Source: Sialis fuliginosa
Taxonomy: Eukaryota > Arthropoda > Insecta > Megaloptera > Sialidae
Length of the DNA: 64,000 nucleotides
Assembly: GCA_961205875.1 (NCBI GenBank)
Contig: OY540812.1
Coordinates: 28,591,098-28,655,097 of the forward strand
Reading direction: 5' to 3'
Shown here: positions 39,415 to 63,109 of the stretch, in pieces
How positions within the stretch are numbered: position 1 is the first letter of the stretch
How the letters are laid out: every line of letters begins with the position of its first letter
Made by a program: the position numbers and the translations under genes
Notes under the pieces: generated by a model
Databases searched by the model: none
Seen by the model: only the letters and a program-made list of their open reading frames with translations
What the model was told of the DNA's origin: nothing

Positions 39415-39905
39415 TTTAGCAAGGAAAGGTGTAAAACTCATAAAACACTATCAAACATTGTTACCACTATGCACCACAAAAACGTGCTGTAAAGTCAATG
39501 GCGTATTATTCGGATCTTGAAATTCATACTAATATAATAAAAACGAAAGTCTGTCTGTTTGTTTGTTACCATTTCACGACTAAACCACTGAACCGATCTT
39601 GATGAAATTTGTCAGAAAGATAGCTTGCATATCGAGGAAGGACAAAGGCTACTTTATATCCCGGAGAATTTGTTAGATAAAAAAATACAAAATTTAAATA
39701 TTTTTATACTACCTTAAAAAATAATTAAGTGATAATTCATTAACAGAGAAACATCTATTGGAACCATCATATTTCTTTACATTCAATTGTAATTTAAAAC
39801 ATATTTGCATATTATACATTTTCAATCAACGCCTATGGGATACATATAGTGAAAATTATGAAAATGACATTTGATAAAAGCTGGTTACCTTCAAGTTTTG
39901 TTAAC
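39415..39905 (+). repeat. Repeat H copy 2, interrupted by a truncated Helitron
   Basis: Matches the H flanks at 19450-20330: GTCAATGGCGTATTATTCGG, AAGTGATAATTCATTAACAG, AACATCTATTGGAA, CAATTGTAATTTAAAACATA and ATCAACGCCTATGG. It is uninterrupted at the position of the 19.6-kb Helitron but carries a different insertion at 39527. Confidence 0.65.
39527..39687 (+). mobile_element. Helitron-like fragment (CACTGAACCGATCTTGATGA type)
   Basis: Contains ACGAAAGTCTGTCTGTTTGT, CACTGAACCGATCTTGATGA, AAATTTGTCAGAAAGATAGC and CCCGGAGAATTTGTTAGATA. The same order is seen in the longer copy at 61747-61955, which continues to a CGCGAACGAAGTCGCG hairpin. This copy stops before the hairpin, so the 3' terminus is lost. 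Repeats of this form are well known in Lepidoptera and other insects (Lep1-like Helitrons). Confidence 0.6.
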
Positions 39906-40047
39906 AGTTTCGTTTTACGGATGCTTATTATCCGTCCATAAACATTCCTAATTTAGAGTATTTTTGAAAAAATAAAGAATTGTCATATATACAATAATAT
40001 ACATGTTAAATCAACTTCCCGGTATGTACTGTGATTATTTATTTCTG

Positions 40048-40084
40048 GACAACGTTTCGGGCCGTTATTACGGCCCATCATCAG
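40048..40084 (-). ncRNA. Hammerhead ribozyme-like motif, left arm
   Basis: On the minus strand: CTGATGA (40078-40084), one unpaired T, a 6-bp stem GGGCCG/CGGCCC with loop TAATAA, then GAAACGTTGTC. These are the conserved hammerhead core elements in the compact form reported for PLEs, with a very small helix III. The extra T before stem II and the weak helix I lower confidence in activity. Confidence 0.5.
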
Positions 40085-40224
40085 GTACCAAAAAATACAA
40101 TGTAAATACAAAAAATACAAAAAATAATTCTGCGAACAAAACTGTTTACATGTCAAGATTATAAAACTATAGAAACGAACACAGCGTTTTTTAGTGTGTT
40201 ACGTAGTTCGTTTTTTAGGTGTTT

Positions 40225-40488
40225 TTATCTGGAAGAGTGTTCTTTTGGTTGTAACTTGATTACAGGTAACCAAGCTTTAGGAAGTCGTATACTGTCGTCT
40301 CTTTTGTTCATAGAAATATTAGAGTTTTTTTCTATTTCTATGGCTTCCATTATTATTCTAGGGTATAATTTATCACAGGTGTGTATTTTCTTAGTGTTAT
40401 CGAAATCTATAGAGTGTCCTGTATCTTGAACGTGTTGAGCCAACGTGTTTGTTTTTTGATTTTTCTTTATCGCCAAAAAATACCAAAC
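40225..40488 (-). pseudogene. Penelope-like element endonuclease-linked C-terminus (fragment)
   Basis: The open stretch gives about 87 residues ending at a stop at 40225, with no proper ATG start; a TAA lies just upstream near 40489. It contains TLAQHVQDTGHSIDFDN, then YPRIIMEAIEIEK and a tail with RLPKAWLPVI. In Penelope-like polyproteins this H...TGH.IDF followed by R..EAIEI.K lies at the C-terminal end of the GIY-YIG endonuclease region. The GIY-YIG core motif and the whole reverse transcriptase are absent. In an intact element it would nick target DNA for retrotransposition. Identification rests on motif memory, not a search. Confidence 0.7.
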
Positions 40489-41274
40489 TTAATTAATAAC
40501 TAATATTATGAACTTATCTTGAACGATATTTTATTCCTTGTATCCTGTATTATTTCTTCATATCAAAACTTTATTCCATTATATTCAACAACTCTCAACT
40601 GTCAATTTCTTTATAGATTCAAAAAAATACTGTCTCTGTTTATTTCACTACAATTCACGTTCTGTCTCTTTCTATATTATATTATTGCAACATAATATTT
40701 GTTTATTGTTTAAATATTTTATTTCTTGATTTTTTAATACTTTATTCAATATTCATTTAACATTATACACTGCTTTAATTCTAATTTTACTGGTTTACTT
40801 TAAATATGATGGTTTAAACTTTAGCTCCGTTTTCATTAACACATATGTTTTAAATTGGCTTTATAGCACCCTTTCTTTCTTCCACTGACTAATAATATAC
40901 TATATCTCTTACTCTTGCTATTTCACTTATACTTATTCTTTCAATAATTCCGTTGTTACAAAATGATTATTATTATTATTCACTAAATTCTCCTTTCTTA
41001 ACACTTCTTATTAACTTCTAACTTCAAAACTCACTATCTTTTATTTTAAATACTATTTTTTATTAATACGACGCTTTATTTAATTATTAATTTTAATATA
41101 TCTCACATCAGTTCTATCTTCTTTCACCACCTAAGGGCTACTGAATCGTCTTCTATCGTAAAATCGCCGAACTATATTTTTTTTAAACAAACGTTTTCAA
41201 ATCAAAAACCAGAGGTTCTTAAACAAAATCAAATACACACACTGTAACTCACATATTAAATGTGACCTGTTACA

Positions 41275-41427
41275 ACATGTAAACAGTTTTGTTCGCAGAA
41301 TTATTTTTTGTATTTTTTGTATTTACATTGTATTTTTTGGTACCTGATGATGGGCCGTAATAACGGCCCGAAACGTTGTCCAGAAATAAATAATCACAGT
41401 ACATACCGGGAAGTTGATTTAACATAT
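41275..41427 (+). repeat. Penelope-like element right terminal repeat (inverted)
   Basis: Inverse complement of 39999-40153 with very few differences (for example near 41423). It shares AAACAGTTTTGTTCGCAG at the inner edge and GTTGATTTAACATATAT at the outer edge. The near identity of the two repeats suggests a fairly recent origin or conversion between them. Confidence 0.8.
41344..41380 (+). ncRNA. Hammerhead ribozyme-like motif, right arm
   Basis: CTGATGA (41344-41350), bulged T, GGGCCG-TAATAA-CGGCCC, then GAAACGTTGTC. Two cleavage positions are conceivable: after GTC (41380) or after GTT (41377). The latter lets GTCC pair with GGTAC upstream, with one bulge, as helix I. It lies on the opposite strand from the left-arm motif, so a single transcript would carry only one sense motif. 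Confidence 0.5.
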
Positions 41428-41538
41428 ATACCAGTCTGTGGAAACATCAATAATAACAATAATATACATACATATACTTATATAAAAATGAAAAAAATCA
41501 ACAGGAATTTTCTTCATCTAGTTAACTTCGTAAATATA

Positions 41539-41954
41539 CAGGTGTCCTAAAAACATACCGACAAACTTTTAATAGTAAACCCATATGTCCGCAAATGAGC
41601 CGTTTTAGCAGTAGAGCAAAAAGGAATTACCTCGCACAAAAGCAATGAATTTTGTCTTTTGGTTGACATTTTTTGTAACTTATGGAAATTATAGTTCAAA
41701 GTATGCTGGACAAAATTTGTAATGGATGCAACCTACGAAAATCCATAACTTTTGATCAGCATACTTTGAAATATCATTTCCACAAGTTACAAAAAATGAC
41801 AACCAAAAGGCCCATTGTTTTTTTACGGGGTCCTTTCTTTTATTCTACTGCTTAAACGGCTCGTTTGAGGACATGGTCTGATTAACAAAAAGCGATCGTT
41901 TTAATATTCTTGACAACTGCTGAAAGTTTGTCGGTATGTTTACGGGACACCCTG
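41539..41954. mobile_element. Foldback MITE, 416 bp, TA-flanked
   Basis: Ends CAGGTGTCCTAAAAACATAC and, from the right, CAGGGTGTCCCGTAAACATA, continuing inverted almost to the centre (CATACTTTGAAATATCATTT pairs with AAATTATAGTTCAAAGTATG). TA (or TATA) flanks both ends. CAGGGTG resembles the foldback at 5117. Non-coding. Confidence 0.8.
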
Positions 41955-43250: not shown

Positions 43251-43255
43251 ACACT

Positions 43256-43637
43256 ATGGGTACAATCCATGCTAGGTTTGATCACGCTCCAGTAAAATAT
43301 ATTATATCGAAACGTAGTTGGACCGAAATCTGACCGATACCTATAGTGTGAATGATTTCATTGCTTATTTATATTTTATTAGAGCGAAACCGGACCAAGA
43401 CCGGCCCGAAAGCGGATCGATAGTGTGGATCAAACCTATGGGTACAATCCATGCCAGGTTCGATCACATTCGAGTAAAATATTTTTTACACTATGCTATA
43501 TCGGAGCGAGATTGGACCGAAACTTGACCGATACCTTTAGTGTGAATTGTGAATAATTTCATTGTTTATTGTATATTTATATTTGATTGGAGCGAGACCG
43601 GCCCGAGAGCGGCTCGATAGTTTGGATTGATCCTTAA
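43256..43637 (+). repeat. Element C, two tandem units of 182 bp
   Basis: ATGGGTACAATCCATGC starts at 43256 and again at 43438. Each unit continues through GATCAC(G/A)CTCCAGTAAAATA or similar, GATTGGACCGAAACTTGACC, GTGTGAAT, TTTCATTG and a terminal GAC(C)GGCC...GCTCGATAGT block. Neither has the outer left arm of C. The second unit ends TTGGATTGATCC. It provides the uninterrupted site for the B insertion at 27787. Confidence 0.65.
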
Positions 43638-62264: not shown

Positions 62265-63109
62265 GTTATGCTTCGTGAAATTATGTTGAATGACTACAAA
62301 GTGAAACTGAGCGAGCTAGCTAACACCATAAGCATCTCAAAGAAACGTTCTGGTCATATCCTTCATAAATGTTTACATATAAAAAAGCTTGGTGCGCGAA
62401 GGGTACCGCGTTTTTTAACAATCGACCAAAATATGAACGTGTTCGACTTTCAAAGCAAAATGCACTGTTTCACCGCAATAAGAAGGATTTTTTCATGCGA
62501 TTAGTGACAATGGATAAAACACGGATCCATTACTACACAAGTCGGCAGTCAACAGAATGGTTATTGCCTGATGAAAGCCGCCCGAAACGCCCAAAAACGC
62601 AACAGTCGGCCGATAAAGTTCTTGTTAGTATTTTTTGGGGTGCACATGGTATAATATTTATTGAATACCTTCAACATGGTAGAACAATCAACCAAGAATA
62701 TCACTGTACATTACTGGATCGATTGAACGACGAAGTCAAAGCAAAACGGCCGCAAATGGCAAAGAAAAAAATGCTGTTTTTCCAAAACAATACACCATCT
62801 CACAAGGCTCACGTTACGAGCGATAAATTGAAGGAATTGCGCTATGAATTGGTTCTGCACTCACCGTATTCTCCTGACCTGGTCTCCAGCGACTACTATC
62901 TTTTTCAGAAATTGAAAATGTGGCTCTCTGACAAAAGATTTTACTTTAATGAAGAGGTCGAGTTGGAAACAAACCGGCATCGAAATGTTAGAGGACCGTT
63001 GGAACAAGTGCATTACTCTAGATAGAGATTATGTCGAAGAATAAAAGAATTTTTTCATTAAAAAAAACGTTTTTTCATTGTTAGGCCAAAGACTTTTCAG
63101 CCCATCTAG
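62265..63109 (+). mobile_element. Mariner element, 5'-truncated
   Basis: The right terminal repeat (63081-63109) reads TTAGGCCAAAGACTTTTCAG then CCCATCTAG, and is followed by TA (63110-63111), the mariner target. The upstream transposase relic has DD34D geometry. The left terminal repeat and about the first quarter of the transposase are absent. The region is clearly less AT-rich than the flanks, marking a later arrival. Confidence 0.85.
62268..63044 (+). pseudogene. Mariner transposase (DD34D), disrupted
   Basis: Mariner transposase cuts and pastes its element at TA. Three frames must be joined. Frame 1 (62268 to about 62430) gives KLSELANTISISKKRSGHIL and ARRVPRFLTIDQ, the second helix-turn-helix region. 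Frame 2 (about 62430 to 62975) gives the catalytic domain: first Asp in VTMDKT (codon 62513), then KRPQMAKKKMLFFQNNTPSH, where the second Asp is Asn (AAC, 62786), and third Asp in YSPDLVSSDYYLF (62891). Second and third positions are separated by 34 residues, the mariner spacing. Frame 3 (62979-63044) gives IEMLEDRWNKCI and ends in TAA. The first Asp is followed by Lys where Glu is usual. An intact family member has ~345 residues; about 85-90 N-terminal residues are missing. Certainly inactive. Confidence 0.9.

Follow-up and report, generated by a model that had tools for sequence, protein, structure and literature searches.

The inverted arms described here are best read as the two ends of a recent, 5'-truncated Penelope-like element (PLE) that would have integrated from both sides of its target, so that their inverted layout is a product of integration; we put the probability of this reading at roughly 0.75. 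The insertion lies within the window (the whole 64-kb stretch of DNA analysed, C4:28591098-28655097) in a 392-Mb host genome of 20 contigs. Its anatomy, its target duplications, the presence of a tail at just one of its two ends, and the repeat of that asymmetry in a second PLE family can all be observed directly. The layout itself is a known one, as are inverted pseudo-LTRs (pLTRs) and tails. What is added here is threefold: the count of one site per end, its repeat in the second family, and the link to start sites of reverse transcription.

Anatomy of the insertion

The window carries the following features (positions are those of the window):

39991..40004, no strand: target-site duplication, left copy (ACAATAATATACAT), an exact 14-nt direct repeat at both insertion ends
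39998..40153, minus strand: left inverted arm, PLE pLTR, no-tail end; outer 3' end at the low coordinate
40042..40094, minus strand: hammerhead-like motif of the left arm; C3 at 40084, predicted cut between 40051 and 40050
40225..40476, minus strand: C-terminal part of the PLE GIY-YIG endonuclease, a 5'-truncated coding fragment that matches the PLE protein of locus L009
40478..41274, minus strand: foreign filler, nt 1-792 of a 1169-bp LTR; LTR start TGTAACAGG exact at 41274, truncated at 40478
41275..41430, plus strand: right inverted arm, PLE pLTR; outer 3' end at the high coordinate
41334..41386, plus strand: hammerhead-like motif of the right arm; C3 at 41344, predicted cut between 41377 and 41378
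41350..41550, plus strand: start of the PLE ORF (MGRNNGPKRCPEINN...); start codon within the hammerhead-like core, frame continuing into host DNA
41425..41457, plus strand: 33-nt tail, extending past the right arm's inverted match and missing at the left end
41456..41469, no strand: target-site duplication, right copy, 14 bp (ACAATAATATACAT); encloses the whole composite

An earlier, sequence-only reading of this DNA had noted inverted repeats with CTGATGA and a GGGCCG/CGGCCC stem, and these are real: the arms (39998-40153 and 41275-41430) are 156 nt each, 99% complementary, and separated by 1121 nt. The first ~7 nt of the left arm overlap the target duplication. The pairing across the whole 1.4 kb that had also been proposed does not hold, because complementarity is limited to the 156-bp arms and the middle is mostly foreign. 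As computed from positions, the arms end ~75 nt (no tail) and ~108 nt (tail) into the PLE ORF. The tail presumably represents the RNA between two presumed start sites of reverse transcription (compare PMC11167929).

Three other features of the window lie outside the insertion: a ~410-bp foldback element (41541-41951) with three nested inverted-repeat pairs, which starts ~70 bp to the right of the PLE; direct repeats spaced ~190 bp (43254-43634), with copies 80-87% identical; and a Mariner-type transposase fragment (62369-63025; Pfam Transposase_1, E 3e-21).

Identity and age

Sequence comparison supports assignment of the element to the endonuclease (EN)-containing PLEs. The fragment between the arms (40225-40476, minus strand) had been taken for a PLE-like endonuclease tail, correctly: 72 of 81 aligned positions are identical to the end of the L009 GIY-YIG protein, with 5 gap positions (E 6e-48). 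This sister copy, L009 on C8, is fuller, with reading frames that carry RVT_1 (E 1.3e-19) together with GIY-YIG; the latter scores 23.0 bits in one arm (cut-off 22.6) and 21.2 bits, below cut-off, in the other. GIY-YIG lies C-terminal to the reverse transcriptase (RT) in L009, and the endonuclease tail in the window aligns to the L009 protein. The RT domain, present in L009, is absent from the truncated window copy. Taken alone, the window fragment gave no Pfam family above cut-off and no match at E 1 in a PDB sequence search. Among solved structures, bacterial reverse transcriptases matched best (E 3.7e-5), with telomerase at just E 0.19. The layout traits of PLEs are also seen: an ORF start inside the pLTR, an optional tail, inverted pLTRs, and a target-site duplication. 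In viral contigs, a protein search did not find a relative; an 18-nt pattern matched 8 loci.

The element had been called a relic. The copy is indeed truncated, yet recent: across 481 bp of PLE sequence compared with three other arms, 2 substitutions and 2 indel columns are private to the window piece. The window copy is thus a young, 5'-truncated PLE fragment.

The filler (40478-41274) matches many places in the genome, often as pairs ~3.8 kb apart and mostly at 97-98% identity. It is part of the LTR of a high-copy LTR retrotransposon, unrelated to the PLE. Its joint at 40478 shows a few nucleotides of microhomology (ATTTGG versus ATTTTGG), whereas the joint at 41274/41275 is blunt (both judged by eye). 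Set against 12 copies of the LTR, the piece in the window differs by 2 private substitutions and at 10 further sites where the copies themselves vary. By these measures the LTR and PLE pieces both appear young, and divergence does not resolve the order of their arrival. Capture during end joining, and later insertion followed by partial deletion, are about equally likely origins for the filler.

A copy of the high-copy LTR element occupies L011 1498-6467. It has two long ORFs, neither with a Pfam family above cut-off, and the target repeat, CCCT, is 4 bp long (by eye). No difference separates the LTRs at its two ends, and so the element moved recently.

One tail and one plain end

The window's right arm plus tail was used as the query against the window's own genome. 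At least 54 matches were obtained from the 40 candidates scored of 73 (33 unscored). They fall in 37 loci (family A), and all 37 were examined. Two opposite-facing arms are present in 19 of these, with the 3' sides outward in every one. In 17 of the 19, a tail is present at exactly one end (+31 to +33) and missing from the other (-2 to +7). The remaining two are unclassifiable, L061 having a tail and an odd end, and L071 a tail arm with an inner inverted piece that lacks an end. Two tails, or two plain ends, were found in none of the 19. Were 17 tail and 17 no-tail labels assigned to the ends by chance, all 17 pairs would be discordant with a probability of 5.6e-5.

A single arm is present at the other 18 loci, 12 of them without a tail and 6 with one; a second end, sought upstream, was not found in these. 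The flanks of L056 and L057 are nearly identical, which suggests that one locus is a duplicate of the other. Where two arms meet, they overlap by 0-16 nt or leave a gap of up to 21 nt; the exception is the window, with its 797-nt filler. Arm starts cluster at reference positions 1562-1583 (14 of 54), perhaps the 5' end of the RNA. Separately, the one-armed loci L052 and L054 both start at ACCTGATGA, two nucleotides ahead of the hammerhead core.

Could one arm simply be a copy of the other? In a snap-back or self-priming scheme, the second arm is copied from the first after a cDNA (or an antisense template) has folded back on itself. For rotifer PLEs, palindromes at inverted junctions led to the proposal of self-priming on an antisense template (PMC3846280), and the near-identical 1.5-kb arms of L009 (2 substitutions in 1519 aligned columns, 185 nt between them) would suit such copying. 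However, the outer ends differ in all 17 classified loci. Moreover, in the window, L010, L037, L046, L064, and L065, the shorter arm bears the tail and the longer arm does not. Neither arm is then a simple copy of the other, and plain fold-back copying is excluded at these loci. We consider snap-back an unlikely source of the inverted arms. (Of the classified loci with arm starts >70 nt apart, all 7 have the tail on the shorter arm, judged by eye, as do 12 of 17 overall; our argument does not rely on this tendency.) In older loci an arm is sometimes further from its partner than from another locus (L048: 8 versus 1.7). That is as separate decay would give, and such divergence is neutral as to whether both arms came from the same RNA.

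The asymmetry recurs in a second family (family B), whose protein is 54-55% identical to that of family A and whose pLTR and tail both differ. A search with the family B pLTR gave at least 44 matches in the 40 candidates scored of 214 (174 unscored). All four two-armed loci fetched (L072-L075) have one tail end and one no-tail end, by eye; the count leaves out the match pair C11:378150/378172 and one-armed matches. Family B has the motif CTGAAGA-T-GG...CC-GAAAC-GTC, with the ATG at A9-U-G as in family A. Family B sequences adjoin the family A insertions at L009 (6777-8822) and L010 (4648-6621), and same-strand family B matches lie ~3 kb apart on C14, C10, and C8.

The hammerhead-like motif

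The conserved core of the hammerhead ribozyme is CUGANGA ... GAAA ... UH. Variants with a diminished stem III have reportedly been described from PLEs by Lunse et al. in 2017 and by Cervera and de la Pena in 2014. Both arms of the window insertion contain the conserved core, within CTGATGA-T-GGGCCGT-AATA-ACGGCCC-GAAACGTTGTCC. A scan of the 64-kb window for core plus stem II gave two matches, one per arm, compared with a mean of 0.07 and a maximum of 1 in 100 dinucleotide shuffles; a looser scan that omits the stem test also matches the mariner fragment, at 62584.

A similarity scan located 48 motifs in the 37 family A loci, of which 46 could be parsed and 2 could not. The core (CTGATGAT/GAAACGTT) is unchanged in 35 of the 46. 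Pair 3 of stem II is G-C in 16, A-T in 27, and unpaired in 3, whereas the other six pairs of this stem are paired in 44-46 of 46. Comparison of the copies thus shows one compensatory change between subfamilies, and a stem kept by base pairing; the change counts as one event rather than many, because the copies are related. Stems and cut site were assigned by hand. In stem I, GUCCAGAAA pairs with UUUUUGG-u-AC, with one bulged nucleotide; stem III is 2 bp and lacks a loop; and A9 is separated from stem II by an extra U, which belongs to the start codon.

Judged by the Rfam check on which the sequence-only reading had itself staked it, the claim that the arms carry hammerheads fails: the hammerhead models gave no match in the window at gathering threshold, nor any up to E 10 on 39900-41550, L009, or L010. 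The core is nonetheless there, as is the one compensatory change in stem II. We call the sequence a PLE-type hammerhead-like motif, a putative ribozyme. None of the 54 family A arm starts coincides with the predicted cut (L057 omitted as a likely duplicate of L056), in agreement with RNA data for the lizard PLE (PMC11167929).

The sequence-only reading saw in the inverted layout a regulatory device, in which read-through RNA from either direction would yield a ribozyme together with an antisense hairpin. The core is intact in both arms, which are complementary over 156 bp, and each motif folds better than all of 200 shuffles (z -3.75 and -3.91). Nevertheless, the predicted minimum-energy fold of each arm is a long hairpin that base-pairs part of the core, and the Rfam result also speaks against the device. 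Another 18 family A loci likewise have two opposite arms, of varied length, as expected of an integration by-product. Finally, the hammerhead of the lizard PLE required added protein for cleavage, and insertion still took place with hammerhead mutants (PMC11167929). No evidence for a device was found, and we think one very unlikely; that reading mistook an integration product for a device. Located in the pLTR over the PLE start codon, the motif is carried along with the element, and nothing here indicates a role for it in the inverted layout.

Target duplications

Exact flanking repeats of 9-16 bp are present at 13 of 18 two-armed family A loci (L071 left out). As for the others, L009 and L065 lie in TA repeats, where repeat length is not judgeable; the exact repeat is just 7 bp at L045 and L064; and at L061 none was found. 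AT-rich flanks can match by chance, and as a control the left flank of one locus was matched with the right flank of another (240 mismatched pairs). With the two TA-repeat loci omitted, repeats of at least 13 bp occur at 9 of 16 real loci but in 4 of 240 mismatched pairs, and repeats of at least 9 bp at 13 of 16 but in 27 of 240. At 7 of the 18 loci (window, L037, L042, L050, L067, L069, and L070; by eye), the repeat includes the ACA of the element end. There, the target had an ACA at the position of the ACA in the RNA site.

These duplications bear on whether two insertions of the same element arose independently, side by side and in opposite orientation, or were brought together by later rearrangement. 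Several insertions are indeed drawn to the same simple AT repeats, as at L009, L065, and L075, which have a flanking repeat in common. At most two-armed loci, however, the direct repeats enclose the whole composite, and independent events would not yield the same orientation in 19 of 19 loci and one tail with one plain end in all 17 classified, leaving this origin with even less likelihood than the device. A non-PLE inverted-repeat DNA element (MITE or foldback) would likewise have short inverted repeats and a short target duplication, but is wholly improbable, since the arms correspond to the 3' part of an element with RT and GIY-YIG and to the start of its ORF, and just one of the two ends has a tail.

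A model for two-ended integration

This leaves the two-ended PLE insertion as our preferred reading. We infer its enzyme steps and strand order, as well as the filler's origin. The element's GIY-YIG endonuclease would make a staggered cut in AT-rich DNA, with the 3' ends ~14 nt apart. Both 3' ends would then prime reverse transcription on PLE RNA, at internal sites ~75 and ~108 nt into the ORF: the plain end would start at the upstream site, and the end with the 33-nt tail at the downstream one. Growing towards each other, the two antisense cDNAs would be joined head-to-head, often sharing a few bases at the joint, and this joining would place inverted pLTRs within a target duplication. In the window copy, the 797-nt LTR piece would have been captured in the joint during joining, or inserted there later and then partly deleted.

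The broader proposal is one of asymmetric paired integration: the two cut strands may use different internal RNA start sites, one each, in a manner common to both families. This would be why inverted pLTRs form with just one tail, and it would suggest that protein and RNA act at the target as an asymmetric dimer. We lean towards this proposal, with less confidence than we place in the two-ended reading of the window copy. The single-tail evidence comes from one genome and two PLE families, and the 18 one-armed loci among 37 show that two-ended integration is not obligatory. A rule of one site per strand was not found stated in the PLE literature searched, where coverage of subscription journals was poor; it may already be in print.

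How PLE insertion is completed, and why terminal repeats are inverted, are questions left open in PMC3846280 and PMC11167929, as far as the portions consulted extend. The single-tail rule favors two primed cDNAs over fold-back copying, and provides a simple test that any PLE-bearing genome can supply. Moreover, it could explain solo pLTR pairs that resemble small inverted-repeat transposons.

Comparison with known systems

PLE pLTRs bear minimal type I hammerheads with little or no helix III (as cited in PMC6466107 and PMC7761336). The motif described here is likened to these diminished-stem-III forms by description: it too has little helix III, and differs by the one extra U between A9 and stem II.

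In bdelloid rotifers, a 2013 paper on Penelope elements already noted both a tail on one of the inverted pLTRs and the capture of foreign sequence (PMC3846280). That account favors self-priming on an antisense template, whereas the tail asymmetry described here argues for two priming events (PMC3846280).

The closest parallels reported are with PAc, a PLE of the Penelope/Poseidon type from the lizard Anolis carolinensis, as described in PMC11167929. In vitro, the PAc protein cuts both strands of its DNA target and extends each of them; reverse transcription begins at two internal positions, which delimit the tail, mostly 111-118 nt into the ORF (PMC11167929). PAc and the elements studied here are alike in several respects: the RT plus GIY-YIG protein; the pLTR; the ORF start inside a hammerhead motif; AT-rich targets; and, as parts of the model here, two internal start sites that bound a tail of 30-40 nt and the cutting and extension of both strands (PMC11167929). 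The start sites on the top and bottom strands of PAc showed no difference in bulk, which counts against one site per strand (PMC11167929). Unlike those bulk data, the present loci show the two sites split, one per end, within single insertions (PMC11167929). Also unlike PAc, flanking repeats here sometimes share an ACA with the RNA site, and a fragment of an LTR fills the joint of the window copy (PMC11167929).
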